From assembly GCF_000757425.2 (NCBI RefSeq), contig NZ_JPKR02000001.1:1-64000 (forward strand): a DNA stretch of 64,000 bases, in the 5' to 3' direction. A program made the translations under genes and the position numbers. Origin of the DNA: Tatumella morbirosei (GTDB lineage Bacteria; Pseudomonadota; Gammaproteobacteria; Enterobacterales; Enterobacteriaceae). Under the pieces are notes generated by a model. The model made no database searches, was not told the origin of the DNA, and saw nothing but the letters and a program-made list of their open reading frames with translations. This document shows, one piece after another, positions 21,043-61,440 of this stretch. Position 1 is the stretch's first letter. Each line of letters starts with the position of its first letter.

Positions 21043-21372
21043 ATGAAAGTGAGCGAAGAAACCCTGCTGGAGTCCGGCTTCAGTCATTCTGATCTCCAGA
21101 AAATTAAAAGCAATGTGGAAAATTTCGGGGGAACTCTTGATGAAGTGATTCAGGATTTAGCAAAACGATTTAATGTAGCTAAGTGGATAACTATTGTTGC
21201 TTTTGTCATCCTGATTTTTACATCTGTTTTATCTACAAAAAATAACACACTCTCTCTGGCTTTTTCGTTGATTGTAGGATTACCTTTTATCTGGTATTTG
21301 ACACCCGCTAAGCTTGCATTTAAAGCCTGGCGGTATAAACAATATTCTTCCGGGATTGAGGGCGATCAGTAA
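21043..21372 (+). CDS. Small two-helix membrane protein next to DUF4225 protein
   Basis: 109 aa, unidentified. Residues 1-45 are soluble and helical (SEETLLESGFSHSDLQKIKSNVENFGGTLDEVIQDLAKRFNV), then two membrane segments (about 47-64 and 70-88) and a short basic tail. The frame is open from 20974, but the ATG at 21043 has AAGGA 8 nt upstream. It converges on the DUF4225-like gene with a 53-bp overlap of coding ends. Could be an immunity-type partner; that is inference from layout only. Confidence 0.6.
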   Translation: MKVSEETLLESGFSHSDLQKIKSNVENFGGTLDEVIQDLAKRFNVAKWITIVAFVILIFTSVLSTKNNTLSLAFSLIVGLPFIWYLTPAKLAFKAWRYKQYSSGIEGDQ

Positions 21373-22165
21373 TTGTCATCAGATCAAAAATAACTTTAGC
21401 CTTTACGCCGTATCCAACAATTTTCATGGTTAGTTTTGGTCGGCTTAACATACTGACTTTCCTGTAATAATCGACTGGGATATAGCGAAATAGTCTCCAT
21501 GTTCCTTGCTTTCTTATTAAACCAAAAATGCTGTAAGCATTAGCAACAAGTGAGATTGATTTATACAAGCCTAATCCACTTTTAGAACTAAACCCCATAA
21601 ATTCAGCCGTAGACATAGCTGCATTAGCAGCAAACCCTTCAGATGTAGAATCATGAAGTACCTGATGGCTAAATTCTTTGCTTAGCCCATTGAATCCATC
21701 CACAACGAGTATTGCTCCAGCCAGTACACCTAATGGATTAGCGCTGGCAAGTAGCGTTGTTCCTAAAGCTATCTCTGTTCCCGAAAGCACCACATTCACA
21801 GCAGAAATTACATACCCAACGATTTTATTATTTTCCCGGACGAACTCCACTTTGGCATAAAGTTTCGCCGCTTTCGTGCGCAGCATTCGACCCTGTACTT
21901 CAAGATTTTCGGTCTCTGCCCTGAGTTTTTTTACACAGGCCATGCATTCTTGATCTGATTTTGCGCGCCGGACTGCAGCAAACTGCTGCTCAACAACCTC
22001 TTTTATTTCCTGCACAAACTTCATCCGGGTCAGACTATCCCGAAGATGGAAGGAGGACAGCGTATTCGCTGTATTAATCAGCTTTCTGGCCTCAAGATTA
22101 ACCATTGTTTCTGCCCAGTTTTTATTCCTGCCTGAGCGCATCATATCAGATAATGCAGCATCCAT
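21320..22165 (-). CDS. DUF4225-like protein with central hydrophobic helices
   Basis: 281 aa; the sequence reads like the enterobacterial DUF4225 family, from memory. An N-terminal helical part carries a CMACVKK pair of cysteines, then a Gly/Ala-rich hydrophobic stretch (about residues 115-165, VGYVISAVNVVLSGTEIALG then LASANPLGVLAGAILVVDGF) and a basic C-terminal part. No known enzymatic motif. The ATG has GGGAG 8 nt upstream. It lies 18 bp downstream of a truncated resolvase on the same strand, so it arrived with a mobile element. Function unknown; hydrophobic glycine-rich helices would fit a membrane-acting effector. Confidence 0.6.
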   Translation of the reverse strand: MDAALSDMMRSGRNKNWAETMVNLEARKLINTANTLSSFHLRDSLTRMKFVQEIKEVVEQQFAAVRRAKSDQECMACVKKLRAETENLEVQGRMLRTKAAKLYAKVEFVRENNKIVGYVISAVNVVLSGTEIALGTTLLASANPLGVLAGAILVVDGFNGLSKEFSHQVLHDSTSEGFAANAAMSTAEFMGFSSKSGLGLYKSISLVANAYSIFGLIRKQGTWRLFRYIPVDYYRKVSMLSRPKLTMKIVGYGVKAKVIFDLMTITDRPQSRKNIVYTARL

Positions 22166-22183: not shown

Positions 22184-22501
22184 TTATATCGCCGATAATA
22201 CTCCTTTGTTTTCAGCTGTAAACAACCGTCGTTTTAGTCTGAAATAAGTGGATCTCGATATGCCTGTTTTCTCCGATACGGCCTTAAATGAAACGCCCTG
22301 CCGAATAAGAGTCAGAGCCGAAGCTGTCGCCGGATGGGGCTTCCTGCCGAACCGAACACCAGAGGCCATTGCAGAAACCCGTCCTTCATTGGTTCGTTCC
22401 AGAATGCGCTCACGCCCGGCTTCTGCCACAGCAGCCAGGATCTGAATGACCATCTTCCCGAGCGTGCCTTCGGTACTGAGACCATTCACCGAAGCGACCA
22501 T
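22184..22501 (-). pseudogene. 5'-truncated serine resolvase/invertase
   Basis: Only the last ~100 residues of a Tn3-resolvase/Pin-type serine recombinase: GLSTEGTLGKMVIQILAAVAEAGRERILERTNEGR (start of the long E helix) and a C-terminal HTH (GRKPHPATASALTLIRQGVSFKAVSEKTGISRSTYFRLKRRL). The catalytic N-terminal half with the nucleophilic Ser is missing. The first codons of the open frame (MVASVN) coincide with the complement of a DUF1471 gene relic, so the element broke off there. Confidence 0.82.
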
Positions 22502-22630: not shown

Positions 22631-23650
22631 TTAGCGTACGGTCTGACCACTCAGCGCTACCTGTGGGCGATCCAGTCCGTAAACTGACCAGTGCACCACA
22701 TTATCACCGATATGGAAGAAAGCCGTTGCCAGGGTATTTTCCTGGTCCGGATCATCTTCTGCCAGCCGGTAGACCGGCAGTTCACCCACATCATCAGACA
22801 GGATCGACAGAACCTGTACCGCGGACAGATTTGTAGCCTCTGCTAACTGTCGGTCGATGGTCTGTTGCCGCGCCCCGGAGCTGTCGGTGATGACCTGACG
22901 GGTCTCCTGCTGTTGCGGATGAATAAGATGATTGGCATGACCGCGGTAACCCGCCATTTCGATAACACTGCTGCCGGTGCCGGTAGCTTCCACGCTGAAT
23001 ATTCGGTGATCGCCCGCCTGGCCCAGCGTATGGTGAAATGCGCCGGCGCGTGGCGACTGGCTGAGTATAGCGACCGCATCATCCAGCCGTTCGGCGTTCA
23101 GTGATGCTCTGGCCAACACCTGGCGGGGAAGCCCTGCCGGACGTTCCACGGCACGAATGTTATTGACCGCATTCACGATGCCATACTGATTGACAGCAAA
23201 GGTATGGCCGCAAATCGAACCCGGATAAGCAAAGCTGGTAAAAGCGGTACCTTGCTGCGGGAAAATTTCGGCAATAAAGCAATCATCACGAAGTTGGGGA
23301 AAACCATCTTCGTTATGAGCAATAAAGCCCTGACCAGCGCTGTCGCGACCGGCCAGGGTGGTACAACCATCCGAGGTCGAACGCACCAGGTCTCCCCGGC
23401 AGTTCCAGGCAAAAACTTCCTCTGGCGAGGCTTCCAGACCATAGGCCAGCCCCTGTAATTCCTGCCAGATCAGCGGGTAATCACGTTGTACCGCCAGAGC
23501 CATGGACTGCGCCTCTGGCGAGTTTTTCAGGCGGATTACCGTCTGCCACAACGCAGTCTGCGTCAGTTTCTGATGCCATGCCGCTCGTCCGGTGATACCG
23601 AGTTGTTCGCCGATGGCAAAGGCATGACCCCGGAGGGTGAGTTTTTTCAT
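22631..23650 (-). CDS. C45 family autoproteolytic acyltransferase/hydrolase
   Basis: 339-aa Ntn-hydrolase related to penicillin acyltransferase (acyl-CoA:6-aminopenicillanate acyltransferase). The expected autoprocessing Gly-Cys is G95-C96 in STSDGCTTLAGRDSAGQGFIAHNEDG, and the following NED segment, YPGSICGHTFAVNQYGIVNAVNN and HHTLGQAGDHRIFSVE match the family. Such enzymes cut or form amide bonds to amines or amino acids. Fourth gene of the glnH-glnP-glnQ-like operon (21-bp gap to the ATPase), so it likely works on the imported compound. No signal peptide: cytoplasmic. Substrate unknown. Confidence 0.85.
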   Translation of the reverse strand: MKKLTLRGHAFAIGEQLGITGRAAWHQKLTQTALWQTVIRLKNSPEAQSMALAVQRDYPLIWQELQGLAYGLEASPEEVFAWNCRGDLVRSTSDGCTTLAGRDSAGQGFIAHNEDGFPQLRDDCFIAEIFPQQGTAFTSFAYPGSICGHTFAVNQYGIVNAVNNIRAVERPAGLPRQVLARASLNAERLDDAVAILSQSPRAGAFHHTLGQAGDHRIFSVEATGTGSSVIEMAGYRGHANHLIHPQQQETRQVITDSSGARQQTIDRQLAEATNLSAVQVLSILSDDVGELPVYRLAEDDPDQENTLATAFFHIGDNVVHWSVYGLDRPQVALSGQTVR

Positions 23651-23671: not shown

Positions 23672-24403
23672 TCAGGACACGTGCTGCAGGAATTCCTGCA
23701 AACGGGCACAACCATTACCGCCTTCAATCAGCTCAACCGGTGAACCATCTTCGGCAATGGTTCCGCCATCGATAAAGATTAGACGGGAAGCCACATCACG
23801 GGCAAAACCAATTTCATGAGTCACAATTACCATGGTCATACCTTCCTCCGCCAGTGACCGCATAACCTGCAGTACTTCATGACGCAGTTCCGGGTCCAGG
23901 GCTGAGGTTGGCTCATCAAACAGCATCATTTGCGGTTTTACCGCCAGTGCCCGGGCAATCGCCACACGTTGTTGCTGACCGCCTGACAGTTCAGAAGGGT
24001 AATGGTCAGCACGGGCCGCCAGGCCCACCCGCGTCAGCAGCTCCATGGCCTGCTTGCGGGCTTCGTCTTTACTGGTATGACGCACCTTGATAGGTCCGAA
24101 CATCACGTTTTCCAGCGCAGTCAGATGCGGGAACAGGTGAAACTGCTGAAACACCATGCCTGCTTCACGGCGAATATCACGCTCATTAACATGGGGATCG
24201 GTCAGATGCATACCGGCTACCATCAGGTTCCCGGAAGAGATTTCTTCCAGTTTGTTAATGCAACGCAGCAGCGTCGATTTTCCTGACCCGGAAGGCCCGA
24301 TGATCACCACAACTTCACCGGCATCAATTTTCAGATTGATATCGTGCAGCACCTGCGTTGAGCCAAAATTTTTCGAGACATTTTGAAATTCAACCATACT
24401 CAT
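23672..24403 (-). CDS. GlnQ-like amino acid ABC transporter ATPase
   Basis: 243-aa ATPase of the polar-amino-acid family: Walker [11 protein letters not shown]-loop [12 protein letters not shown], signature [15 protein letters not shown], Walker [13 protein letters not shown], switch VTHE. Very close to E. coli GlnQ. The open frame starts at 24490, but the ATG at 24403 overlaps the permease stop as ATGA, the usual coupling. Third gene of the operon. Confidence 0.92.
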
Positions 24404-25056
24404 AAGATATGCATCCTTTTTTCCAGAGTTTTTAGCAGGAAGCTCAGACACAGAGTAACAATCAGGTAAAGTGCTGCAACTGCGGTCCATACTTCAAGTG
24501 CACGGAAGTTACCGGCAATAATTTCCTGGCCCTGACGGGTCAGTTCGGCAACCCCAATCACGATAAATAATGAGGTATCTTTAATACTAATGATCCACTG
24601 GTTACCCAGCGCCGGGATCATGCGGCGTAACGCCAGCGGCATGATGATGTACCACAGTGTCTCGCGGGAAGAGAGCCCCATCGCCAGACCGGCTTCACGG
24701 AAGCCTTTATTGATAGACAATAGTGCTCCGCGGGTAATTTCGGCAATATAGGCCCCGGAGTTAATCATAATGGTGACAACGGCCGCAGTAATTGGCTCAA
24801 TATGCACCGGCAGAGCTAACGGCAGGGCGAAGTAGATAAACATCACCTGAACCATAATCGGTGTTCCGCGGATAAGTTCTACAAAAATCAAAGAGATGGT
24901 TTTTGATATCCTGCCCCCTAATGCACGGCTGACACCGGCCACCAGGCCAATGACAAATCCTCCAATTAAGCCGATGACTGAGATAAACAGGGTGAGCTTC
25001 AGCCCCTGCAACAGAATTGGCACGGCTTGCCAGACATAACTGATATCAAAATTCAT
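24400..25056 (-). CDS. GlnP-like amino acid ABC transporter permease
   Basis: 218-aa permease of the His/Glu/Gln/Arg type with the EAA loop [44 protein letters not shown] and long identity with E. coli GlnP ([51 protein letters not shown]). The ATG at 25056 gives the GlnP-like start [10 protein letters not shown] hairpin separates it from the binding-protein gene upstream. Confidence 0.93.
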
Positions 25057-25086
25057 AATGGTTATCCGCACGGTCAAAGAGAAAAG

Positions 25087-25116: not shown

Positions 25117-25869
25117 TTATTTAGGTTCTTTGTCGAACCATTTCAGGTAAATCTTGTTATAGGTGCCGTCAGCACGTAACGCTTTCAGAGCTTCGTTAAC
25201 ACGTTTGGTGTAAGGGCTGTTTTTCTGCAGAGCGAAACCGTACTGTTGTGGCAGAACGCTGTCGTTCTCGCCGGTGGCTTTAATTTTGCCGTCACCCGCA
25301 GTTTTCACGTAGTACAGCACGTTAGGCGAGTCGTGAACTACGGCATCGATATTTCCGGCCTGCAGATCCAGGTAGGCGTTATCAATGTTCGGGAATTCAA
25401 CATAGTCTGCTTTCACATGAGCTTTCATGTAGGTTGCTGCGGCAGTACCCTGTTTCAGACCGACTTTCTTACCTGCCAGGTCGCTGAATTTATTGATACC
25501 GGTCGCTGAACTTTTGACTGCCATCAGCAGGTCCGCATTGTAGTACGGGTCGCTGAAATCAACGGCCTGGGCACGTACCGGAGTAATAGTAATACCCGCC
25601 ATTGCCACATCGATATTACGCGATTGCAGGCCTGGGATTAGACCACCGAAATCCATTGGCTGCAGTGTATATTCCACGCCCATTTTTTTGGCGATGGCAT
25701 TCCACAGGTCAATATCAAAACCGACGTATTTGTCCCCTTGTTTAAATTCAAAAGGAACAAATGCGGTATCGACACCGACGGTCAGCTTGTCTTGTGCCAT
25801 AGCACTAAAACTGAACGCACTTGCCAGTAAAGCCAGTGAGATACCAACAGTATTAATTGTTTTCAGCAT
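25117..25869 (-). CDS. GlnH-like periplasmic amino-acid-binding protein
   Basis: 250 aa, with a signal peptide cleaved after SFSAMA, and a type II periplasmic binding fold (SBP_bac_3). Closely resembles E. coli GlnH: DTAFVPFEFKQGDKYVGFDIDLW, GITITPVRAQAVDFSDPYYN, FPNIDNAYLDL, and the last residues YNKIYLKWFDKEPK. First gene of a glnH-glnP-glnQ-C45 hydrolase operon under a sigma-54/NtrC control region. It is not in the E. coli glnHPQ neighbourhood, so it may be a paralog with a different ligand. Confidence 0.9.
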   Translation of the reverse strand: MLKTINTVGISLALLASAFSFSAMAQDKLTVGVDTAFVPFEFKQGDKYVGFDIDLWNAIAKKMGVEYTLQPMDFGGLIPGLQSRNIDVAMAGITITPVRAQAVDFSDPYYNADLLMAVKSSATGINKFSDLAGKKVGLKQGTAAATYMKAHVKADYVEFPNIDNAYLDLQAGNIDAVVHDSPNVLYYVKTAGDGKIKATGENDSVLPQQYGFALQKNSPYTKRVNEALKALRADGTYNKIYLKWFDKEPK

Positions 25870-25916: not shown

Positions 25917-25932
25917 AGCAATAACTATGCCA
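25917..25932 (-). promoter_or_regulatory. Sigma-54 promoter of the glnHPQ-like operon
   Basis: On the minus strand TGGCATAGTTATTGCT fits the sigma-54 consensus TGGCAcR-N4-TTGCw, with GG and GC exactly 12 nt apart (-24/-12). It lies about 48 nt before the start codon of the binding-protein gene. Confidence 0.85.
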
Positions 25933-26076
25933 GAAGTTGTAATAAATTATTTTCAACTAAAAATAAGTTAACTCACTGATTTAAAAAAGATAATCATGTT
26001 ATCTGGCTGTTAATGCTTAACAGAAACATAAAACGGCGGGTAATCAGATTTTCTTATAGCACACCGGATATGGGGC

Positions 26077-26124
26077 GCACTTATTTGGTGCTCCATTTTG
26101 GTACCCGGAGCACTTTTTTGGTGC
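26077..26124 (-). promoter_or_regulatory. Two NtrC enhancer sites
   Basis: GCACTTATTTGGTGC (26077-26091) and GCACTTTTTTGGTGC (26110-26124) both match the NtrC site GCAC-N7-like palindrome (GCACTATATTGGTGC in glnA). Centres are 33 bp apart, about three helical turns, and lie some 150-200 bp upstream of the sigma-54 promoter, typical of nitrogen-starvation enhancers. Confidence 0.87.
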
Positions 26125-26141: not shown

Positions 26142-26699
26142 TCAAAAATCTTCCGGCGGGGAGTGTGGTGGAGTGCGGGCGACATTCATCATCATGGCCA
26201 GCAAGGCGTAATAACCATTAATCCCGGTTAAATCGATCACTGCGGTTTCACCAAACTGGCGGATAACCTGTTGCCATATCTCGTCACTGACCTGCTTTTG
26301 CTGGTGCAGTTGCTGGCAGAAATAATAAACCAGCCATTCGTCCTGTTTTAGCGAATTTTCCTGCGGTTGTTGCTGCTGGCGAATCGCAAGAATTGCCTGT
26401 TCTGAAATACCTTGCTGACGGGCAATGGGCGCATGGATTTCCCATTCCACTGGCTGGTTCCAGTAACGGGCGGTCAGAAGAATGGCCAGTTCTGACAGAC
26501 GAAGACCTATTGCACTGCGGTAGCGCAGATATTCGCCCATTCGCTGAGCATGTGACATCAGCTCAGGGCTGCGGAGCAGAACCTGAAAAGGGGGTAATAA
26601 CCCGCCGCGTGGCCCCTTAATTACCTCTTCGGCCAGCACCCGTTGCTCCTCACTCCACTGTTCCTGTGAGAGTGGCGGTAAACGGTTATTGTCGGTCAT
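26142..26699 (-). CDS. Carboxymuconolactone decarboxylase-family protein
   Basis: 185-aa AhpD/CMD-fold protein. The region RYRSAIGLRLSELAILLTARYWNQPVEWEIHAPIARQQGIS matches the CMD core, but the CxxC redox pair of AhpD is absent, so decarboxylase- or lyase-like rather than disulfide chemistry is expected. It begins 3 bp after the aminotransferase stop, so the two are coupled. Its 3' end lies next to the NtrC sites of the glnH-like operon. Confidence 0.82.
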   Translation of the reverse strand: MTDNNRLPPLSQEQWSEEQRVLAEEVIKGPRGGLLPPFQVLLRSPELMSHAQRMGEYLRYRSAIGLRLSELAILLTARYWNQPVEWEIHAPIARQQGISEQAILAIRQQQQPQENSLKQDEWLVYYFCQQLHQQKQVSDEIWQQVIRQFGETAVIDLTGINGYYALLAMMMNVARTPPHSPPEDF

Positions 26700-26702
26700 G
26701 AA

Positions 26703-28040
26703 TCAGACTCCTGCTGCCCGATGGGTTTCCTGCTGTATCACCTGCTTCAGGGTCTCCACCACAAAATCCAGCTGCTGTTCTGTCACGATAAATGGGGGAG
26801 CGATCAGGATATGATCTCCCTGCTGACCATCGATAGTGCCGCCCATAGGGTAGACCATCAGTCCTTTTTCCAGACAAGCACGTTTAATTGACGCGTGCAG
26901 TTTCAGGGCCGGATCAAAAGCGGCCTTAGTCTGCTTATCTCTGACCAGTTCAACACCGGCAAACAGTCCGCGTCCGCGGGTGTTACCGACAAATTCCAGT
27001 CCGGCTAACTCTTTTTCTAATTTTTGGAGTAAATAATTTCCCTGCTGTTGCACCTGACTTAACAAATTGTCCCGCTCTATTACCTGCTGTACCGCCAGCG
27101 CAGCCGCGGCCGCAGTAGGGTGACAGATGTAGGTATGACCGTGCTGGAATAAGCCGCTGCCGCGCCGAAGCGGCTCGATGACTTTATCGCTGACCAATAC
27201 GGCACCAATCGGCTGATAACCGCCGCCCAGGCCTTTAGCAATGGTCACGATATCCGGAACCACATCATCCTGCTCAAAGGAGTGAAGCGTTCCGGTACGA
27301 CCCATTCCACACATCACTTCATCAGCGATGTACAACAGGCCATATTGGTCACACAGTTTCCTGACTCCGGAAAAATAACCCCGGGTCGGAGGTACGGCAC
27401 CGGTAGTGGCTCCGCTAACGGTTTCGGCGACAAAACCGATAATTTTATCCGCACCGGTTTCCAGAATGGTCTGCTCGAGTTCGTTCAGCAACCGCTGCGT
27501 ATATTGTTGTTCTGTTTCATCCGGGCGCTGATCACGGTAAGCATTACAGGCAGATACCCGTGCGACATCCATCAGCAATGGCGCAAATTGTTTACGGCGC
27601 CATTCGTTCCCCCCGACCGCCAGTGCACCCAGGGTATTGCCGTGATAGCTCTGACGACGGCCAATAAAGGTGGTTTTCTGTGGCTGTCCGGTTTCCACGC
27701 AGTACTGACGCGCCAGCTTCAGGGCTGTTTCTACCGCTTCTGACCCCCCGGAGACAAAATAGACCGAATTTAGGGAACCAGGGGCGGTCCGCACCAGTTG
27801 ATCCGCCAGGCTCTCTGCGGCTTCGCTGGTAAAGAACCCGGTATGCGCATAAGCCAGGGTATCAATCTGGCGATGCATAGCCGCCAGAATATCCGGGTGA
27901 GCATGGCCCAGGCAGGAGACAGCAGCACCGCCACTGGCATCCAGATAACGTTTTCCGGAAATATCGGTGATATAAGCACCTTGCGCCGCAACGGCAACCG
28001 GTGGGGTAAAACTCAGACTGCGGTGAATAATATGGCTCAT
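26703..28040 (-). CDS. Class III PLP-dependent aminotransferase
   Basis: 445-aa fold-type-I transaminase of the omega-amino-acid/4-aminobutyrate type. PLP features: YFVSGGSEAVETALKLARQY (phosphate loop), DEVMCGMGRTG and TIAKGLGGGYQPIGAV with the Schiff-base lysine in IAKG, then QHGHTYICHPTAAAAAL. Members move amino groups from diamines, beta- or omega-amino acids. Cotranscribed with the CMD-family gene and preceded by an RpiR regulator gene; substrate not deducible. Confidence 0.88.
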   Translation of the reverse strand: MSHIIHRSLSFTPPVAVAAQGAYITDISGKRYLDASGGAAVSCLGHAHPDILAAMHRQIDTLAYAHTGFFTSEAAESLADQLVRTAPGSLNSVYFVSGGSEAVETALKLARQYCVETGQPQKTTFIGRRQSYHGNTLGALAVGGNEWRRKQFAPLLMDVARVSACNAYRDQRPDETEQQYTQRLLNELEQTILETGADKIIGFVAETVSGATTGAVPPTRGYFSGVRKLCDQYGLLYIADEVMCGMGRTGTLHSFEQDDVVPDIVTIAKGLGGGYQPIGAVLVSDKVIEPLRRGSGLFQHGHTYICHPTAAAAALAVQQVIERDNLLSQVQQQGNYLLQKLEKELAGLEFVGNTRGRGLFAGVELVRDKQTKAAFDPALKLHASIKRACLEKGLMVYPMGGTIDGQQGDHILIAPPFIVTEQQLDFVVETLKQVIQQETHRAAGV

Positions 28041-28103
28041 GATAATCCCGACACTGAGGTAGCAGGGGAAAACCCCCGATAAAGGCTATATTCTCAGATT
28101 CAA

Positions 28104-28132
28104 ATGAATCATTCAATCTAATAATGATTCAT
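28104..28132. promoter_or_regulatory. Inverted-repeat operator candidate upstream of the aminotransferase
   Basis: Arms ATGAATCATT and AATGATTCAT (10 bp, perfect) with a 9-bp spacer, located 64 bp upstream of the aminotransferase start and just after the RpiR gene. Likely operator of the neighbouring regulator. Confidence 0.55.
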
Positions 28133-28218
28133 ATGCATCATTGATGGGCGACAGTAATACCTCAAAAAGGCCGGTAAGGAATGTATTCTGTCAGCAGAAT
28201 GTCAGCTACGGGGGAGGG

Positions 28219-29073
28219 CTATTTTCCGGGCAGTATGTAGGCGCCGGAATTAATCAGATAGCGTTCTGCACTCTCAATCCGGCGGATGGCGTCTTCACCA
28301 TGCTTTGCCACCAGCGTCGCCATCAGGCACTCAGCAATCCCCATTCCGGACACCACCGAAGGAAAAAATGACGGGCTGTGGGTGGAAAAAAGCAGACTGC
28401 AACGCGCTGCCTGAGCCAGCGGTGAAACCGGCGAATCAGTCACCGCAATCACGGTGGCCCTGGCAGCCTCGGCGTAGGCAATAATCTGCAGGGTTTCCCG
28501 TGAATAGGGCGCGAATCCGACAATAACCAGCACATCACCGGCGGATATTTCACGGGTAAATATTTCCTGATTATTTGCCAGCCCGTCTATCAACGACACC
28601 TGGCGATGAAATAACCGGTAAATATAGTAAATTGACCAGGCCACCGGAAAACTGGCACGAAAACCACAAATATAGATCTGATCGGCCTGATCCAGCAGAC
28701 TGACCGCCTGTTCCAGCGACTGACGGTTATTTTCGTGGGTCTGCTGCAAATTGGCGGTAAACGTGGTGAACACTTCATCATAGAGTGCCGGATGTTGCTG
28801 CTTATCCTGCAAACCACTGGCCCGGGAAGCATAGCTGTCACCGGCCAGCCCCAGAGAGCGGATCATCGCGTCTTTCAGGTCCCCCCAGCCGGAAAACCCC
28901 AGACGTTTGGCCAGACGCAGCAAGGTCGCGGGTTTGACTCCGGCATTTGAGGCAAAAGCCCGCATCGACAAAACGACCAGTTCATTATTATGCTCCAGTA
29001 CAAATTCAGCCGCTTTCTGTAATTCCGGCGTCAGCTCAGGGTAATGGTCAACAATAATTTTGCGCGGGTCCAT
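28219..29073 (-). CDS. MurR/RpiR family transcriptional regulator
   Basis: 284 aa: N-terminal RpiR HTH (residues about 1-78, with SMRAFASNAGVKPATLLRLAKRLGFSGW) and a C-terminal SIS sugar-isomerase-fold domain (about 120-260, IYICGFRASFPVAWSIYYIYRLF, GDVLVIVGFAPYSRETLQIIAYA, VIAVTDSPVSPLA). Such regulators sense phosphosugars or related small molecules. It lies upstream of the aminotransferase-CMD genes on the same strand and presumably controls them. Confidence 0.88.
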   Translation of the reverse strand: MDPRKIIVDHYPELTPELQKAAEFVLEHNNELVVLSMRAFASNAGVKPATLLRLAKRLGFSGWGDLKDAMIRSLGLAGDSYASRASGLQDKQQHPALYDEVFTTFTANLQQTHENNRQSLEQAVSLLDQADQIYICGFRASFPVAWSIYYIYRLFHRQVSLIDGLANNQEIFTREISAGDVLVIVGFAPYSRETLQIIAYAEAARATVIAVTDSPVSPLAQAARCSLLFSTHSPSFFPSVVSGMGIAECLMATLVAKHGEDAIRRIESAERYLINSGAYILPGK

Positions 29074-51492: not shown

Positions 51493-52167
51493 TTATTTCA
51501 GATGGGTCGCCACATCCAGAACGCCGTTAATCACGAACTGAACTCCCATACAAACCAGCAGGAAGCCCATCAGGCGGGAAATTGCTTCGATCCCTCCTTT
51601 ACCGACCAGCCGCATAATGGCCCCGGAACTGCGCAGACACAGCCAGAGAATGACTGCGACCAGCAGAAAAGTCAGCACAGGGGCGACATGCAGTACCCAT
51701 GCCGGGAAATCCCCGGTTTTCACGGTAGAGGCAGTACTGATAATCATCGCAATGGTACCGGGCCCGGCAGTACTTGGCATAGCAATCGGCACAAAAGCGA
51801 TATTGACCTGGGTATCCTGATGCTCTGCGGCATCTATCTCTTCCTGTTTATGCTGAACTTCCAGGGTATCGTGCAGCTTCTGCACCGGAAACAGCATCCG
51901 GAAACCGATAAAGGCGACAATCAGCCCCCCGGCAATTCGCAGCCCCGGAATGGAGATGCCAAAGGTATCCAGCACCGCATTACCGGCGTACCACGCCACC
52001 ATCATAATCAGAAAAACGTACACTGAAGCCTGAAATGCCTGGCGATTACGTTCGGTAAAATTCATCTCGCCAGATAAGCCGAGGAACAGTGCGACACTGG
52101 TCAGCGGGTTCGCCAGTGGCAACAGCACCACCAACCCCAGCCCGACAGCCTTGATGAGTTCCTGCAT
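51493..52167 (-). CDS. marC: MarC family inner-membrane protein
   Basis: 224-aa UPF0056 protein with six helices. Very close to E. coli MarC ([94 protein letters not shown]). ATG at 52167 has GAGGG 5 nt upstream; an upstream TTG is less likely. Function unknown despite its name. Confidence 0.94.
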
Positions 52168-52416
52168 ATTAACCCTCAAATTATTCTTTGCTCCGTCCGC
52201 TGCTAATGCTGCGGCGCGGTACGATTAATAACATCAGCAGGCAGTTGCCTGTGCGGCGCACAGTATAGTGGTTAGTGAATAACCGACAGGGGCGAAAGTT
52301 GCTCCGGCAGCTAAAGTGTAGCAGTAACAGGAAAAGGGAAGGAATGAACAGAGAATAAACAGGAAGAAAGAGTCCGGAACCGGTCACTGACCGGCTCCGG
52401 CAAGGGGAGGGGGGAA

Positions 52417-52932
52417 TTACATACCGAGGTATTTTTTACCCTGTTCCAACACCACGTTACAGGCCTTGGTTTTCAGTTTTTCACCCATCGGGGTATTGCT
52501 CAGGCTTTTCAGGCTAATCTGCTGACCCTTACCGGTATTCAGCAGACCTTCCAGACCCTGCGCATAACCGGTTTCCTGTGTCTGTTCAGAGGTATCGGTC
52601 AGGCCCAGCTTACTTTTCAACTGGTCAGTGACCGAGGAAACGTTGTTTTTCACCAGGTTATTCTCAGCACAGTACTGCAGAATACCGGTGACATTACTCA
52701 TGCTGTTTGAACTGACTGCATTATTACCGCCATTCAGCAGGCCAGTAATCGAGGACAGAGACAACCCGCCTTCAGAACCTGCAGACTGGCCGGAGGTAGC
52801 AGAAGAAGAATTCATCAGGTCTGATGCGCTGCTGCTCAGCTTATCCTGCCAGCTGGCCGCACTGGCCGCTCCGCTGATCAGTGCGGCAACTAAACCCATT
52901 GCCAGCAACGGTGTGTGTGTCATTTTTTTCAT
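52417..52932 (-). CDS. DUF2501 (YjjA-like) exported protein
   Basis: 171-aa periplasmic protein: signal peptide to ISGAASA, Ser-rich linker, then LSSITGLLNGGNNAVSSNSMSNVTGILQYCAENNLV and a C-terminal domain with a second Cys (KTKACNVVLEQGKKYL). Start at 52932 has GAGG 8 nt upstream. Role unknown. Confidence 0.87.
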   Translation of the reverse strand: MKKMTHTPLLAMGLVAALISGAASAASWQDKLSSSASDLMNSSSATSGQSAGSEGGLSLSSITGLLNGGNNAVSSNSMSNVTGILQYCAENNLVKNNVSSVTDQLKSKLGLTDTSEQTQETGYAQGLEGLLNTGKGQQISLKSLSNTPMGEKLKTKACNVVLEQGKKYLGM

Positions 52933-53184
52933 TAAAACAGCCTCATTCAGGTTATTTTTTTGCATTGCTCGCTATTTTAGTCCGTCACCCCCACCGTAAG
53001 TTCCTTTTTCCGGTTTCTGCCCCGCGAATCGGAAATCTCCGACCACTTCGACGCACAAAATGTGCATTTGTGCTGTAGGGCAAGGGCAAGGGAGATCTGG
53101 CGAGGCGGTGTAGTCTCAGCGGAGGGTGGAACAGGGTGAGTGATTGTTTTTTCGGCAGTTAACCGACAACTGCACGGATTCACC

Positions 53185-53212
53185 TTGCACCCGCCACGAC
53201 TCAGGGTATAAT
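53185..53212 (+). promoter_or_regulatory. leuX promoter
   Basis: TTGCAC (53185-53190), 16-nt spacer, TATAAT (53207-53212), about 28 nt before the tRNA 5' end. Confidence 0.8.
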
Positions 53213-53239
53213 CCCGTTGTTTTCCGCATACCCTTCAGT

Positions 53240-53324
53240 GCCGAAGTGGCGAAATCGGTAGACGCAGTTGATTCAAAATCAACCGTAGAAATACGTGCCG
53301 GTTCGAGTCCGGCCTTCGGCACCA
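53240..53324 (+). tRNA. leuX: tRNA-Leu (anticodon CAA)
   Basis: 85-nt leucine tRNA with a long variable arm and encoded CCA end; 7-bp acceptor GCCGAAG/CTTCGGC, anticodon loop TTCAAAA, T-arm GGTTCGAGTCC. It appears identical to E. coli leuX. The gene is a classic integration site of genomic islands and marks the start of an accessory region here. Confidence 0.97.
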
Positions 53325-53338
53325 TAAGTATGCAAAGT

Positions 53339-53363
53339 AAGTCGCTCAGGAGCGGCTTTTTTT
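53339..53363 (+). terminator. leuX terminator
   Basis: Stem AAGTCGCTC/GAGCGGCTT (one G-T pair) followed by a run of T residues, directly after the tRNA. Confidence 0.8.
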
Positions 53364-53727
53364 GTGTCTGAAATCTCCCTCCTCCATCAGAATTTTATTG
53401 TTTATTGCACAATGTACAGCCTCGTAAAATGTAGATATCCCTTAGGTTGTTGGACTGTCTAAGTTCAGACCTGCCGTTAAGAGCTGTCAATTTGGTTACC
53501 GGACTTGTGAATCCTCTTTATGGCCTGGTTTAAGTGGCATCCTGATGAATTACCAACAGTTACTCCATCCCCTCCGGATATTTTTAACCCTGACGGGCTG
53601 ATGATGGCAGGGATTGCCCGGTTAAAAATAAGGCAGAAATTTGCTGACTTTATGTGCTTTCCATTAGCGGATAACAGGAGTAGTATAACACCAGGTGCTA
53701 CATATAAGGTAACAGGATGTCAGCCTT
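53364..53727. other. Left border of the leuX island
   Basis: About 360 bp between the tRNA terminator and the first island gene, where a P4-type integrase would be expected. None is seen. Near its right end an imperfect palindrome centred at 53693 (TATAACACCAGGTGCTACA, 53684-53702) lies before the toxin gene and is a likely autorepressor site. Confidence 0.5.
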
Positions 53728-54087
53728 ATGCGAATTTTTAAAACAAAATGGTTCAGCAAAGCAGCTAAAGCTCACGCAATTAAAGATAGTGAGTTATGCC
53801 AGGCTATGGAGACGGTAATGCAGGGAAAGGCTGATGATTTTGGCGGTGGTGTTTACAAGAAACGACTAAACCAGAATCGTGATCGTGCCATTATCCTGGC
53901 TAAAGGCGGAAAGCATTGGTTTTACACGTTCCTGTATGCCAAACAGGATATGGCAAACATCGATAATCGCGAACTGGCCGGATTCCGCGAGTTAGCAAAG
54001 CACTACGCTGCCCTTGCTGATGAAAAGATTACGGCACTGATTAAGAATAAAGAACTGGTGGAGATTTGCCATGACTGCAAAAAGTAA
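53728..54087 (+). CDS. RelE/HigB-type toxin
   Basis: 119-aa mRNA-interferase-like toxin of the HigB family (PF06296 type): FSKAAKAHAIKDSELCQAM, GGGVYKKRLNQNRDRAIILAKGGKHWFYTFLYAK. Toxin gene first, antitoxin second (overlap 17 bp), the HigBA order. First intact gene of the leuX island; a stabilising module. Confidence 0.88.
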   Translation: MRIFKTKWFSKAAKAHAIKDSELCQAMETVMQGKADDFGGGVYKKRLNQNRDRAIILAKGGKHWFYTFLYAKQDMANIDNRELAGFRELAKHYAALADEKITALIKNKELVEICHDCKK

Positions 54088-54394
54088 GTTTAAGAGTCCT
54101 GCATTTGAGGCCATCCACAGCGCGGCTTCCGGATTATTCAGCGTCGATGCTATCCCGCAGGAAACAATGCGCAACTTTGATAAAGCGTGCCTTAATAACG
54201 TGGATGACTTACAGCCTGTTGAAATTAAGGCATTGCGCGAGAAGCTGAACGTCAGTCAGCCGGTTTTTGCCAGTTACCTGAACACCAGCCTTTCAACGGT
54301 GCAGAAATGGGAAAGTGGTGCAAAACGCCCAAGTGGGGTATCCCTTAAACTGCTTACTGTGGTTCAGAAGCATGGGTTGAAGGTGTTGGTTTGA
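54071..54394 (+). CDS. XRE-family antitoxin (HigA-like)
   Basis: 107 aa with an HTH at about residues 55-90 (REKLNVSQPVFASYLNTSLSTVQKWESGAKRP). Neutralises the upstream toxin and represses the operon. Its start lies inside the toxin gene, so the two are coupled. Confidence 0.9.
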   Translation: MTAKSKFKSPAFEAIHSAASGLFSVDAIPQETMRNFDKACLNNVDDLQPVEIKALREKLNVSQPVFASYLNTSLSTVQKWESGAKRPSGVSLKLLTVVQKHGLKVLV

Positions 54395-54733
54395 GTTAGA
54401 GCGCTGGTTATTTGGAAAATATTTTTAAGGTGAATTGACGAGCGGTTTAGTGTCAGAAGAGGACGTTGCTGACATCAGTTTTTTTGATAACTGGGGCGCA
54501 GTCACACTAGAGCTTGTTTTTATCTATTGCTATGGTGGTTTTCGCTATGGCAGGCTCTGAGGACAATGGAGTCTTAAATGACAGTGCTGAAGTTTCCATT
54601 ACTCAGAGCACCAGATCCAAAAATTTATTAATATTATTAATGTCAATCTGGCAAAATCTGAGTTGTCAGATTATAGTGTTACGCAATGTGAAAGTGCAGC
54701 CAGCATCTGACGTTGTTACATACTGAGGTCAAA

Positions 54734-55912
54734 ATGGGACGTTCGGCCGATTACACCATCCAAGGGTTTCTGTATCAGTTCAATATGACGCTCTGTGAAC
54801 TGCTTAAAGCGGCAGACGAGGCAGAAATTACAATTGAAGGAATTGTAGAAGATATTGAGGTGGCTACATTTTCAGGTACTAAAGCCATACAATGTAAATA
54901 CCATGAGACGCAGTCTAAGTATTCCATAAGCATACTTTATGACCCTTTGCTTCAGATGATGAAACACTTTAAGTCAAATCCAACTGCAAAAATAAAATAT
55001 CACCTCTTCGCGCACTTCCCAAACAGTCCCACGGTGACTATAACCGATGTTGAACTTAAAAGTGCTCTGAACTCAAGTAATCAAAATTTAAAAACACTTA
55101 TAGCTGATGCAAAAGGTGTTGATATTAAAAAGTTTCTTGACGTATTCTCCATTACTATTACACCAAAATATGACGATTTGATGGAGCAAAACACTAAACT
55201 TCTCATCGATTTGGGATTCAGTAAGAGTGAGGTTGAAGCATTATTTTATCCTAATGCCATTCAGATAATTGGTGATCGAAGTATCAAACATGATGAAAGT
55301 TTGAGGAAAATCACTAAAAAATTCTTTCTGGAAGAATTGCGTCGCATTAGATCTACAGCTATTTCACAATGGACCCTTGCATTAAAAACGCGACAGAAGG
55401 TTTTGGATTCACGACGAAAGCAACTGAAAGAAAATCTAAGTTTAAATGCTCGCCTGCGTTTCCTAGTTGTATTCCCCGAACTCCTTGAAGAGTTCGATAA
55501 CCAGATAGTTCTTTTTATAAAATCATTTATTGATAAATATCATTTTAAACAAGCTCACACCCACACTCCCATTTTTATATTGGATGTTTCTCAATCCGAA
55601 TTTGATGATATTGCAGAACGATTATACAGCAAAGATGTGATCCCAAATATCGGACGCCATGTTAAATCCTTCTCCGAAAAAAAGTTTTTCAGTGAACCTA
55701 TAGTTACCCGAGATAAAAAAGAATTTGTTCTTCGCTTTATTCGCTGGGATGATTACAAAAATCTTCATCCCAAAGTTAAGGCGGATGATTTTTTTGTAAT
55801 TGGAGATGGAGATGTGACAGAGCTGGATCTTCGGGATGTAAATCTTGAGGCTTTGGGTGCCGAAAAATTTGATGAAATTAAATATATGATGGGGATCAGT
55901 AATGGCTACTAA
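54734..55912 (+). CDS. Restriction-endonuclease-like protein paired with HerA (candidate defence nuclease)
   Basis: 392 aa, AT-rich. The N-terminal part has the pattern of a PD-(D/E)xK/Mrr-type nuclease as in DUF4297/Cap4 proteins: DYTIQGFLYQFNMTLCELL, then E35, VEDIEV with D40, and AIQCKY with Q53-x-K55. The rest is helical with a long charged region (about 200-250) and no named domain that I recognise. The ATG at 54734 follows GAGGT; a TTG at 54713 is less likely. Its stop overlaps the HerA start by 11 bp. A known defence type pairs DUF4297 nuclease with HerA, and this looks like a member or relative; identity of the C-terminal half is open. Confidence 0.72.
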   Translation: MGRSADYTIQGFLYQFNMTLCELLKAADEAEITIEGIVEDIEVATFSGTKAIQCKYHETQSKYSISILYDPLLQMMKHFKSNPTAKIKYHLFAHFPNSPTVTITDVELKSALNSSNQNLKTLIADAKGVDIKKFLDVFSITITPKYDDLMEQNTKLLIDLGFSKSEVEALFYPNAIQIIGDRSIKHDESLRKITKKFFLEELRRIRSTAISQWTLALKTRQKVLDSRRKQLKENLSLNARLRFLVVFPELLEEFDNQIVLFIKSFIDKYHFKQAHTHTPIFILDVSQSEFDDIAERLYSKDVIPNIGRHVKSFSEKKFFSEPIVTRDKKEFVLRFIRWDDYKNLHPKVKADDFFVIGDGDVTELDLRDVNLEALGAEKFDEIKYMMGISNGY

Positions 55913-57668
55913 AATTGGAGCTGTACTATCGTGCGCACCAGAGGCTGTCATCGTTGCAATAGATAGTCTTGAAACATTTGAAGCAAATAAAGAAAACCTT
56001 CAGGTTGGGCGCTTTCTGAAAATTGCCCAAGGTAATCACGATTTTACAATTGTCACCATCCGTAATATCAAAGGTACTAACACCACTGATCCAGAAGGCA
56101 AGCCAGACTGGAGCTTCCAAATAGAGTGTCAGGCTATCGGAACGTTGGTGGATGATAAAAATTTTGACCGCAGTAGTCTGCTGCTGCCAGTCCCAACTGA
56201 GCATGCATTCATTGCTGAAAATGACACTTTAGACAAAATCTTTTCAGCTGATAGTGAGCACGACTTCCCTCTCGGCAAACTTTCTATGAATAAAGATACC
56301 GACCTCATGATCAGCGGTAACAGATTCTTCAGTAAACACATTGCTATCGTAGGTTCCACGGGGTCTGGTAAGTCATGCACTGTTGCAAGCGTTTTGCAGA
56401 GGATTGTTGGAATTACTGAGTGTAAAAACAGCAATAAAGATCGGCAGAATAACTCGCATGTGGTGATTTTCGATATTCACGATGAGTATTCTGCCGCATT
56501 CGATTTGCATGAAGAGGAATCGTTCACTCTCTCTCGGCTGGATATTGATACCTTACAACTACCCTACTGGCTAATGAACGCAGAAGAACTTGAAAGCATG
56601 TTCATCGAAAGTAATGAGAACAACTCCCATAATCAGGTTAGTCAGTTCAAGCATGCCGTTGTATTAAATAAAGAAAAGTATAACCCAGCAGTTCCGGAAG
56701 TAACGTATGACACGCCAGTGTACTTCTCAATTAATGAAGTCTATTACTACATTGAAAACATGAATCGAGAGGTTATTGGTAGGATTGCGGGGGAGGATAA
56801 ACCGAAGCTGGCTGATGGAACTCTGGTCACCGATAGATCTATTTATTTTGACAAAATATACGATTTTATCGCAACCTCGAACTCCGGGGGAGCCAAGGCT
56901 ACCAACGGGCCTTTTACTGGCGAGTTCAACAGGTTCGCCTCGCGGCTTGAGGCCAAACTAACAGATAAACGTCTCCGATTTCTGTTGAATGCCAAGAAGG
57001 CTGACGGGAATACACATGTCACAGAGGATTTCGAGACGCTGATGAAGCAATTCATTGGCTATCTGGATAAATCGAACGTCACTGTCATCGATTTGAGCGG
57101 GGTGCCATTTGAAGTTCTCAGCGTTACAGTCAGTCTGATCTCTCGCCTGATTTTCGATTTTTGCTTCCATTATTCAAAGTTGCAGCATGCCAGCCACAAG
57201 CTTAATGACATCCCGGTGATGTTGGTTTGTGAAGAGGCACATAACTATGTACCTAGGGACGGACACGCATCTTATCGGGCATCAAGAAAATCTATTGAAC
57301 GCATAGCAAAAGAAGGCAGAAAATATGGCTTGTGCCTTATGGTAGTAAGCCAGCGTCCCTCAGAGGTCTCAGAAACCATTTTTGCTCAATGCAACAACTT
57401 CATCTCGCTGCGTCTGACAAATGATGCCGATCAGTCCTATGTTCGACGACTATTTCCTGATAATTCTAATGGTATCACCGAGATTTTACCAAACCTGGCT
57501 CCTGGTGAATGTGTGGTAGTGGGTGATGCGGTGCTACTGCCTGCAGTTATCAAAATGCCACTTCCGGTGCCAGAACCTCACTCCCAAAGCGTTAAAGTTC
57601 ATAATGAGTGGCAAACGCTTTGGCGCGATGTGGCTTTCGCAAAGGTCATCGAACGATGGAGAAAGTGA
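55902..57668 (+). CDS. HerA-family hexameric ATPase (defence type)
   Basis: 588 aa: N-terminal HAS-barrel (about 1-100), RecA-like motor with Walker A GSTGSGKS (151-158), Walker B VMLVCEEAHNYVP (about 440-452) and SQRPSEVSETIFAQCNNFISLRLTND (sensor/Arg-finger region), then a C-terminal brace ending VHNEWQTLWRDVAFAKVIERWRK. HerA rings pair with nuclease or SIR2 partners in phage defence; the overlapping upstream nuclease-like gene implies one complex. Distinct from YjgR at 45.7 kb. Confidence 0.9.
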   Translation: MATKIGAVLSCAPEAVIVAIDSLETFEANKENLQVGRFLKIAQGNHDFTIVTIRNIKGTNTTDPEGKPDWSFQIECQAIGTLVDDKNFDRSSLLLPVPTEHAFIAENDTLDKIFSADSEHDFPLGKLSMNKDTDLMISGNRFFSKHIAIVGSTGSGKSCTVASVLQRIVGITECKNSNKDRQNNSHVVIFDIHDEYSAAFDLHEEESFTLSRLDIDTLQLPYWLMNAEELESMFIESNENNSHNQVSQFKHAVVLNKEKYNPAVPEVTYDTPVYFSINEVYYYIENMNREVIGRIAGEDKPKLADGTLVTDRSIYFDKIYDFIATSNSGGAKATNGPFTGEFNRFASRLEAKLTDKRLRFLLNAKKADGNTHVTEDFETLMKQFIGYLDKSNVTVIDLSGVPFEVLSVTVSLISRLIFDFCFHYSKLQHASHKLNDIPVMLVCEEAHNYVPRDGHASYRASRKSIERIAKEGRKYGLCLMVVSQRPSEVSETIFAQCNNFISLRLTNDADQSYVRRLFPDNSNGITEILPNLAPGECVVVGDAVLLPAVIKMPLPVPEPHSQSVKVHNEWQTLWRDVAFAKVIERWRK

Positions 57669-58608
57669 ATATCATGCCGGAATTCTTTTTCTTAAAGGAG
57701 CCGGATTTGGGGGCAGGGCCAGCTTGACCTGCTCCCCCTTGATTCACACAGAATGCTGTTAGCAATGTCCATTATTCGCTCTTAGCGGTCCGTCAGATTT
57801 GCTAACCTATTTTGTATGAAGAAAGCTGATCTTCCCTCTTATCCGTTGTAAAGACTGGCGAATTCCACATTATATAAATCAATATGGGGGTCATTATGGT
57901 GGTCAATAAAATAATCATTTTATTAAAAACCATAAAAATCAATTCAATGATATTTATAACAAGTCAGGTCTTCGCATAATTCAGTTTAATTCCTTATAAA
58001 ACAGCAAGTTATATGTAAATTTCTATCTCTCTTATATGTAAGAAATGATTTAAAGTTTCACCAGAAATTGCCGCTTAGTTTAGTAGTAGTAGATATCGGG
58101 AATACTAACTCATAGCGGCGTGTCGTTCCAAGCTTCAAACACGTACAGTTTGTTAACTTGAACAGCTATGACGTTAACCACGTCTCTAAATATCCCAAAA
58201 CAGTTTTATATCACGCATTCAAGCCCGATGCGTGGCGTTGTTCAGCCCAAAACAGGTCTATGGTGGTAAGCTTACCTGCACACGAAATGCAGGCTCTGCC
58301 AGAGTCTCAGCTACGCTCCCGAAAAGGTACACGGTTATCCTGATAAGGTGTGATCACTCTGGACAGTTGAGGAAGTCACTACGCTCCACTTGTTGTTAGT
58401 ACCACCAACGGGGCTTTATGGCTACTATTGCTTTTTACAAGGACCATTTAATTAAGCTATAAAAACACACAGAAGTTGATGAGCAGAGTGTTTGCAAGTA
58501 ACATCACTAGTAAATAAATTTGGTATTACAAAAAGCGAATGTCCCTTAGCACGAAAGTCTCTAGCGTGCGTTGTATGGTGATAGCATTTATTGATAAGGA
58601 AGTTTACC
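57669..58608. other. 940-bp AT-rich stretch without a convincing gene
   Basis: Starts with a bulged GC-rich hairpin (GGGGGCAGG 57709-57717 with CCTGCTCCCCC 57728-57738) that may end the HerA operon. GTTAGCAA/TTGCTAAC arms lie at 57758-57765 and 57799-57806. A 27-codon frame at 57896 is noted separately. The rest shows only scattered short frames and looks like decayed DNA. Confidence 0.45.
57896..57979 (+). CDS. Possible 27-aa hydrophobic peptide
   Basis: ATG behind GGGGG (spacing 6); reads MVVNKIIILLKTIKINSMIF and ends SQVFA. Could be a small membrane peptide or the lost signal peptide of a vanished gene. Weak evidence. Confidence 0.25.
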   Translation: MVVNKIIILLKTIKINSMIFITSQVFA

Positions 58609-59460: not shown

Positions 59461-59814
59461 AGCTTGAAGGAACTATAAAGTATTCAACATTTGGAGTTAA
59501 TCAGTAGTTAAAATTGTAATTTAAAAATTATTTATTAAGAGATACATAGTAATAAGAAAAATCGAATCTAGATACTGTGAAAATACGCTTCTCATATTAA
59601 ACGCTGGGAACCGTATCAATACTATTACATCTTTGTAGCAAATTATCACTTAGACGTGGACTGTATCCCACCATTTCAAAGGCCGTACTATCAAGCGCCG
59701 TCAATTCCCCCCGCAAACGATTGTGCGAAATTTGTGCGAAATATCTTAGCTAATTTTCGTCTATTAAGTTTCCAAGTCGTCCTGTAAGCATACCTGTTTT
59801 TAGTTCCAGACACT
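59461..59814. other. Spacer with an 11-bp tandem repeat
   Basis: About 350 bp with no gene. TTGTGCGAAAT occurs twice head to tail at 59721-59742. No RNA or promoter recognised. Confidence 0.5.
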
Positions 59815-61040: not shown

Positions 61041-61126
61041 GGAAACATATTCAGTACGTCCGAAGATCTCTAAAAGTGAACAGTTCTTTTTGCAGGGATT
61101 TTACAATTGTAACTTGCTTTTGGGGG

Positions 61127-61326
61127 CTACATTTCATTTTTTTTTCTTTTTGATGCAGAGTGAATCATGCCAATCTCATCATCATCTTTAACACTACGCC
61201 CTGCAAAATTTAGTAATTGACGAGCTTGTTTGATTCATGGCACCAATATCGAAGAGTCATTATGACATCACAATACTTGTCCAAAAGATGAGCGTCAATA
61301 CCGAATGTATTCTCGAGCGCTGGTTC
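61127..61326 (-). pseudogene. Frameshifted remnant of an unidentified gene
   Basis: Minus strand; one frame reads EPALENTFGIDAHLLDKYCD and onward VIMTLRYWCHES, then the next frame continues ARQLLNFAGRSVKDDDEIGM and IHSASKRKKNEM-stop. The composition is protein-like and the break is a single shift. Lies between the methylase gene and the IS remnant on their strand; looks like the C-terminal end of a lost gene. Family not recognised. Confidence 0.4.
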
Positions 61327-61378
61327 TTAAGGGAAAAGTGCTGATATCACATCATACTTATCGCGGGGAACTGGTAAG

Positions 61379-61413
61379 ATAGTCAAAACGCTACATTATG
61401 GCGTTTTGACTAT
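61379..61413 (-). terminator. 13-bp perfect hairpin downstream of the methylase gene
   Basis: ATAGTCAAAACGC and GCGTTTTGACTAT around a 9-nt loop, 28 bp after the methylase stop. The stem itself carries T4/A4 but no free T-run follows; likely a transcript end or stabiliser. Confidence 0.6.
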
Positions 61414-61440
61414 AAATATTTAATCTATGAGGAAAGGAAA

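Follow-up and report, generated by a model that had tools for sequence, protein, structure and literature searches.

The locus described here lies on the minus strand of the window, by which we mean the whole stretch of 64,000 nucleotides that was analysed. It encodes a glnH-like periplasmic binding protein (25117..25869; 250 residues counting the stop), a glnP-like permease (24400..25062; 220 residues), a glnQ-like ATPase (23672..24400; 242 residues) and a C45 Ntn-hydrolase (22631..23650; 339 residues; PF03417, 130.2 bits; NF040521, 247.6 bits). All three transporter proteins score above the NCBIfam equivalog cut-offs for GlnH, GlnP and GlnQ, with 330.7 bits against NF007029 (cut-off 303), 375.9 bits against NF007028 (cut-off 303) and 451.4 bits against NF007027 (cut-off 379). 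An earlier note on this DNA covered this half of the locus; upstream, on the same strand, are an RpiR-family regulator with HTH_6 and SIS domains (28219..29073; 284 residues), a class-III aminotransferase (AT3; 26703..28040; 445 residues; NF005685, 741.3 bits, cut-off 485) and a CMD-like protein (26142..26699; 185 residues). The last merely resembles the carboxymuconolactone decarboxylase (CMD) family, its 21.2 bits for PF02627 lying under the gathering score of 23.0, and a search of solved structures gave no match for it.

Downstream of C45 are a resolvase piece (22184-22501, minus strand), which matches just the end of the Pfam resolvase domain, and a DUF4225 protein (21320-22165, minus strand); both are perhaps remains of a mobile element. 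In genome G098 the next clear gene downstream of C45 is MiaE-like, as read by eye. Elsewhere in the window, at 52001-64000, the G+C content drops from about 0.54 to 0.40-0.44, which suggests foreign DNA.

The elements of a nitrogen-type promoter precede glnH. Along the minus strand two NtrC-like enhancer sites come first, the distal GCACTTTTTTGGTGC at 26110..26124 and the proximal GCACTTATTTGGTGC at 26077..26091 (neither assigned a strand), each with 9 of the 10 fixed letters of GCACC-N5-GGTGC and 33 bp apart from start to start. They are followed by an IHF-like site, AATCAGTGAGTTA (25969..25981, minus strand), by a sigma-54 -24/-12 element, TGGCATAGTTATTGCT (25917..25932, minus strand), with GG and GC at the standard spacing, and then by glnH-glnP-glnQ-C45. 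The earlier note had described this gene order, the pair of near-identical palindromes 33 bp apart and the -24/-12 element before the glnH-like gene; reading frames and profiles bear out the order, and both signals lie where it had placed them.

The NtrC pattern GCACYNNNNNRGTGC has two perfect matches in the 64 kb, both at this promoter, and TGGCATAGTTATTGCT is the only match in the window within one mismatch of the sigma-54 pattern TGGCAYRNNNNTTGCW. Over 300 dinucleotide-preserving shuffles of the window the mean counts were 0.33 for the NtrC pattern and 0.16 for the sigma-54 pattern, and no shuffled window (0/300) held two NtrC matches within 60 bp; with one mismatch allowed, GCACYNNNNNRGTGC has 8 matches in the window, not above the shuffle level. 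Both window sites also match 10 of 12 letters of the 15-bp NtrC core GCACCAnnnTGGTGC printed in the excerpted text of PMC8743547. The NtrC box printed in that excerpt stresses TnnTGC; both window sites have an A in place of the stressed T, and of the six Tatumella genomes L036 alone has the T in its proximal site. Genome-wide, the sigma-54 pattern has 28 matches against 4 for a reversed control pattern, and the NtrC pattern 22 against 12 for its control. Some of the 28 precede nitrogen genes, among them a PII gene (glnK-like) with a 10/10 NtrC site and, with the proteins read by eye, a guanine deaminase, a nitrate-transport-like protein and others; the remainder lie before a PspA-like protein, regulators and transporters of other kinds, or inside genes (likewise read by eye).

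Conservation is stronger evidence for the putative promoter than these pattern counts. In all six Tatumella genomes, which form one lineage and so do not give independent counts, the proximal NtrC-like site retains 9-10 of 10 letters and both half-sites, GCACC and GTGC; the -24/-12 element retains 10-11 of 12 letters; the distance between the two is 159-160 bp; and an IHF-like AATCA[TG]-N4-TTA, one letter off the IHF consensus, is present. The distal site has 9-10 of 10 letters in three of these genomes, 8 in two and fewer than 8 in one. NtrC (TIGR01818, 805-809 bits) and RpoN (PF04552) are encoded in all six. Upstream of glnH in the cluster loci of other Enterobacterales, a sigma-54 match of at least 9/12 or an NtrC match of at least 8/10 is found in none of 15. 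Scanning whole clusters in these bacteria gave isolated 10/12 sigma-54 matches elsewhere (in L038, L040, L043 and L082 among others) and 9/10 NtrC matches inside genes of some clusters, with no match to either pattern in the CMD-glnH gap. In five Tatumella loci, for which a common start was used, this gap spans 269-279 bp; outside the genus, taken from the first start codon and thus a lower bound if the true start is further in, it is 15-138 bp in 14 of 15 loci and 227 bp in L082. Control of glnHPQ-C45 by NtrC and RpoN is well supported as a prediction, since the promoter is kept in all six Tatumella genomes, ntrC and rpoN are present in each, and some of the sigma-54 matches precede nitrogen genes. 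Two Acinetobacter loci (L074 and L092) have an 11/12 sigma-54 match 57-70 bp before glnH; a common GT.CTAAA.TAGTGC further up, read by eye, may be an enhancer of their own.

Another putative control region lies upstream of AT3, with candidate RpiR operators at 28097..28110 (GATTCAAATGAATC) and, 29 bp away, at 28126..28139 (GATTCATATGCATC), neither assigned a strand. All 25 loci examined for this, 24 from Enterobacterales and one on a Pseudomonas plasmid, have palindromes of the GATTCANNTGAATC type (at least 10 of 12 letters) in the gap between RpiR and AT3, usually as two or three copies at a spacing of about 29-30 bp. There are 57 matches in 5,985 bp of these gaps, compared with 26 in 433,071 bp elsewhere. 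None falls in the CMD-glnH gaps of the loci examined, and most of the Pseudomonas and alphaproteobacterial loci checked are without such a palindrome. In Pantoea sp. A4 (L142) a cluster-type glnHPQ stands apart from C45, with a palindrome of this type upstream. The palindromes are perhaps RpiR operators, an assignment that we treat as a hypothesis because the pattern was found after looking.

C45 alignment yielded 127 confirmed loci, and tallies were made by tblastn (an ORF-based table had lost C45 in 4 loci) on the best 80 of the 127, so that they lean to close relatives. The nearest named loci are four from Tatumella (L034-L037), which places the window in a species of this genus. Among these best 80 of 127, 66 loci from several proteobacterial groups have glnQ immediately before C45 and 14, a few of them near contig ends, do not; glnH, glnP and glnQ are all present in 65; an RpiR-like gene is in the fetched stretch of 69; and 11 loci either have none of glnH, glnP, glnQ and RpiR or are missing RpiR alone. 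Within the same best 80 of 127, the fetched stretch includes AT3 in 54 loci, a CMD-like gene in 44, always with AT3, and a gene resembling that of beta-keto acid cleavage enzyme (BKACE-like) in 7, all alphaproteobacterial by record title and 6 of them with AT3; no locus has CMD and BKACE together. Two of the seven BKACE-like genes were confirmed as PF05853, and the BKACE search gave the 3-keto-5-aminohexanoate cleavage enzyme as the nearest relative. Gammaproteobacterial loci carry CMD in place of BKACE; the choice follows taxonomy and may reflect history rather than function.

The earlier note had placed C45 outside any known glnHPQ operon and thought it unusual. That view has to be given up, as C45 is a regular cluster member that adjoins glnQ in 66 of the best 80 of 127 loci; judged from gene neighbourhoods, it belongs to a widespread cluster with RpiR, AT3 and CMD and is no odd addition to glnHPQ. 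The same count bears on C45 homologues scattered without a transporter, which the note had named as evidence against its reading; that objection is not borne out. Nine C45 relatives (L053, L085, L091 and L098 among them) have no cluster companion in the stretch examined, and three genomes, G027, G163 and G017, have RpiR-AT3-CMD-C45 with no transporter genes in between, the aminotransferase of G017 being incomplete. In Pantoea coffeiphila (L053) and Erwinia sp. JUb26 (L055) a C45 relative (55-57%) without transporter or RpiR lies between a TonB-receptor-like gene and a possible activator of 672 residues, as read by eye. A Tatumella genome, G225 (L193, G225:C1:275500-282500, with L192), carries upstream of AT3 a further ABC transporter for polar amino acids together with M81-like and amidase-like proteins (read by eye), and no RpiR within the DNA fetched there.

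The canonical dps-linked glnHPQ is absent from all six Tatumella genomes. The GlnH family model (E <=1e-60) gives one match in each, at 320-330 bits, and this is the C45-linked gene. In all six, dps adjoins a gene read as rlmF (from reading frames in three and a marker peptide in six); at the corresponding place in Pantoea glnHPQ adjoins dps, and in E. coli rlmF lies beyond glnHPQ. The 21 other Enterobacterales genomes with C45 have a canonical GlnH of 469-500 bits in 20 cases and a partial one in G204. Across 198 genomes of the family, with at most 12 candidates scored per genome, the GlnH model has a match in 103, and the best match is no higher than about 330 bits only in G000, G098, G154 and G028. 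The last of these was rejected as a genome with a low-scoring GlnH alone, its copy beside dps being broken or poorly assembled. Equivalog cut-offs can call the cluster transporter GlnHPQ, and since 20 of the 21 other Enterobacterales C45 genomes also have a full canonical GlnH, genomes with the cluster may bear an incomplete function label.

The GlnH tree places canonical GlnH in a group of their own (99/99) and the enteric C45-linked GlnH, with those of Tatumella and Acinetobacter, in another (100/100). A third set, with weak support, comprises the C45-linked GlnH of Pseudomonas, rhizobia and others, and a single origin of all C45-linked GlnH was not recovered. The window GlnH falls outside the canonical group, its gene is not beside dps, and it is not orthologous to the canonical dps-linked protein; it may work like GlnH but on this evidence is a paralogue.

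The binding pocket is largely retained. In E. coli GlnBP the glutamine contacts include Phe13, Phe50 and His156. Contacts at Asp10, Ala67, Gly68, Thr70, Arg75, Lys115, Gly119 and Asp157 are given in the excerpted text of PMC7400645. The window GlnH retains 10 of these 11 positions, the exception being G119A, and over 14 pocket positions the Tatumella GlnH agree with canonical GlnH except at 119. This position is Gly in 20/20 canonical GlnH and Ala or Ser in 66/66 C45-linked ones, and for that reason the identity of the ligand is not certain. Elsewhere among C45-linked GlnH, Lys115 is replaced by Arg in 8 and Ala67 by Ser in 1. The genome has 26 other binding-protein matches, and the nine most similar all lack Lys115 and His156. 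Because the glutamine contacts are kept in the genome's only GlnH-family match, nitrogen control would fit glutamine uptake and need not concern the substrate of C45.

Rates of amino acid replacement also set the Tatumella transporter apart. For five of the six Tatumella genomes and 15 other loci, with synonymous sites near saturation, mean dN for glnH/glnP/glnQ is 0.031/0.042/0.029 in Tatumella compared with 0.065/0.064/0.048 elsewhere. AT3 is similar in the two sets (0.070 and 0.077), and three genes evolve faster in Tatumella, namely CMD (0.204 vs 0.076), RpiR (0.120 vs 0.083) and C45 (0.240 vs 0.199). Dividing transporter dN by that of the remaining four genes gives 0.16-0.33 for 10 pairs within Tatumella and 0.35-0.85 for the 105 pairs outside it; the pairs share branches and so give a contrast between groups rather than a test on 115 independent points; against AT3 alone the ranges overlap (0.36-0.62 in Tatumella, 0.37-1.60 in the others). 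Relaxed constraint on the enzymes could produce this contrast just as tighter constraint on the transporter could.

In G154, which belongs to another genus of the family, the order at the same chromosomal site is valS-RpiR-glnHPQ, followed by a MiaE-like gene (read by eye). AT3, CMD and C45 are missing from the site, no C45 match was found in the genome, and there is one GlnH match. A 10/12 sigma-54 match, TGGCATAGCTTTTGCT, lies 63 bp before glnH, the same distance as in the window; no NtrC-like site above 6/10 was found within 500 bp, and no palindrome resembling the RpiR operators. This arrangement suggests that a transporter under sigma-54 can be retained in its own right.

The C45 model (mean pLDDT 94.5) matches the isopenicillin N acyltransferase structures 2x1c, 2x1d and 2x1e over its full length (TM 0.80-0.82); query TM values are 0.59-0.68 for acid ceramidase and NAAA, compared as uncleaved chains, and 0.40-0.46 for bile salt hydrolases. 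Asp94-Gly95-Cys96-Thr97 and 50 other positions are invariant (47 aligned of 81 sequences), and self-cleavage is predicted before Cys96 in DGCTT. C45 is an open reading frame in all six Tatumella genomes, with the invariant residues kept in the five aligned, and for this reason the cluster has not simply turned into a glutamine importer. The amide cut by isopenicillin N acyltransferase is that of an alpha-amino dicarboxylic acid. That chemistry, taken with the glutamine-type binding protein, would point to a gamma-glutamyl amide as candidate substrate. The earlier note had proposed import of an N-acylated or amide compound. The contacts to the alpha-amino group are kept, which makes an N-acylated amino acid look unlikely and weakens that half of the proposal; an imported amide is possible as the C45 substrate, a side-chain (gamma-glutamyl) amide being more likely than an N-acyl one. 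The released amine might, as a weak inference, be a beta-amino acid, which would fit AT3 and the BKACE or CMD partners.

A broader proposal, conceivable but in our judgement doubtful, is that the C45-linked GlnHPQ of proteobacteria is not by origin a glutamine importer and instead forms the entry to an unrecognised pathway for gamma-glutamyl amides (N5-substituted glutamine). C45 would release glutamate and an amine, AT3 would convert the amine (a beta-amino acid) to a beta-keto acid, and the CMD-like protein or BKACE would dispose of the product; in Tatumella the transporter would have been recruited for nitrogen-controlled glutamine uptake after loss of the housekeeping system.

We think it likely that a widespread catabolic cluster has been rewired in Tatumella, its transporter having taken over from the housekeeping importer and come under nitrogen control. 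In other Enterobacterales the cluster would probably be a single RpiR-controlled transcript from the tandem GATTCANNTGAATC operators before AT3, with a separate housekeeping glnHPQ beside dps. In Tatumella the housekeeping glnHPQ is missing, perhaps lost before the putative NtrC/IHF/sigma-54 promoter arose between CMD and the cluster glnH; nitrogen starvation would then switch on glnHPQ-C45, and the paralogous transporter would serve as glutamine importer. C45 would presumably hydrolyse a side-chain amide from the same importer (a gamma-glutamyl amide is a guess), and the amine might pass to AT3. This reading draws on the promoter, present in 6/6 Tatumella genomes and 0/15 other loci, on the one GlnH in each Tatumella genome, on the pocket, the dN ratios and G154, and on the enrichment of RpiR-operator-like palindromes. 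Tatumella would be an apparent example from nature of regulation rewired once a gene had been lost, and, if the reading is true, one in which a catabolic paralogue has displaced a housekeeping transporter; among its relatives the state before is represented by the 15 loci, and a lineage without the enzymes by G154.

That glnQ adjoins C45 in 66 of the best 80 of 127 loci makes it very probable that importer and hydrolase had a common substrate in the ancestral cluster. The same count also favours a dedicated nitrogen-starvation operon in which an N-acylated or amide nitrogen source would be imported and cut by C45, glutamine uptake being secondary, and the intact C45 of Tatumella speaks for the same. 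We nevertheless regard such an operon as rather unlikely. Constraint on the Tatumella transporter far exceeds that on C45 and CMD, G154 lacks the enzymes at the site yet retains the transporter with its regulator and a sigma-54 match, the glutamine contacts of GlnH are kept, and the nitrogen signals occur just where the housekeeping importer is absent. Still less likely is a joint transfer of promoter and transporter between Acinetobacter and the lineage of Tatumella, as opposed to an origin within Tatumella. Both Acinetobacter loci have their 11/12 sigma-54 match in the same place, and Tatumella and Acinetobacter group in the trees of GlnH (99/99) and of concatenated GlnHPQ (99/98), but this grouping is absent from the AT3, CMD, GlnQ and C45 trees (which include one of the two Acinetobacter loci), the AU test does not reject a tree that keeps the Enterobacterales as one group (p 0.254), and no enteric-type NtrC site reaches 8/10 in the Acinetobacter loci.

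The palindromes might alternatively form an RNA hairpin that ends the AT3-CMD transcript, in which case the -24/-12 element would serve a different enhancer-binding protein or have no use. Folding z-scores are -4.3, -5.1, -3.9 and -5.3 in four of the six species and -2.5 and -1.0 in the others, and the paired sequences between the two sites differ among species: at 26085-26116 the inter-site arms pair with different sequences in several Tatumella (GTGCTCC/GGAGCAC, GGTGCTTCAT/ATGAAGCACC), a hint that a hairpin may form in the RNA too. Yet the fold is not the same from species to species and in L036 lies close to chance, while the half-sites of the proximal NtrC-like site never vary and stand at a fixed distance from the -24/-12 element; moreover, no T-run follows the palindromes on the transcribed strand, and the one terminator predicted at the sites lies on the other strand. 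The hairpin or terminator reading is thereby weakened, and we consider it highly improbable.

As to the cluster itself, among the publications listed by literature searches we recognised none as treating its function. Part of it is named in the excerpted text of PMC12670165, where chromosomal aphA1 of K. michiganensis is placed near a C45 family peptidase, glnQ, glnP, glnH and rpiR. That region is probably the same cluster as our K. michiganensis locus L082; the excerpt concerns the origin of the resistance gene and is silent on cluster function. L082 differs from the window in having no sigma-54 or NtrC signal upstream of glnH. An ORF of 273 residues lies downstream of its C45. The likeness to BKACE catabolic gene sets lies in the BKACE-like gene near the cluster in 7 of the best 80 of 127 loci; the difference is that gammaproteobacterial loci carry CMD instead. 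The likeness to the isopenicillin N acyltransferase of Penicillium (C45/AAT) lies in the fold, in a profile match with E 3.9e-13 and in the alignment of DGCTT with DGCTT of 2x1d; identity is 16-17%, and the window enzyme is bacterial and linked to an importer.

The closest comparison is with glnHPQ of E. coli, whose promoter, glnHp2 (NtrC/IHF/sigma-54), needs IHF. The likeness extends to the type of transporter, to the regulators as judged by sequence and to enhancers upstream of a -24/-12 element before glnH. The NtrC sites are at -255 and -222 in the window (33 bp apart) and typically at about -171 and -158 in canonical promoters (13 bp apart), where an NtrC match of at least 8/10 occurs in 19 of 20; the -12 box is TTGCT in the window and of the TTTCAT form in 19 of 20 canonical promoters, that of L131 being TTGCT. 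With NtrC positions, spacing and -12 box differing in this way, transplantation of a canonical glnH promoter is unlikely as a simple explanation, although canonical L131 has TGGCACGTTTATTGCT at the same distance. In E. coli K-12 the glnHPQ genes adjoining dps are listed as a target of RpoN and NtrC in the excerpted text of PMC8743547. The canonical system lies beside dps, whereas the window transporter is a paralogue beside C45, AT3, CMD and RpiR.
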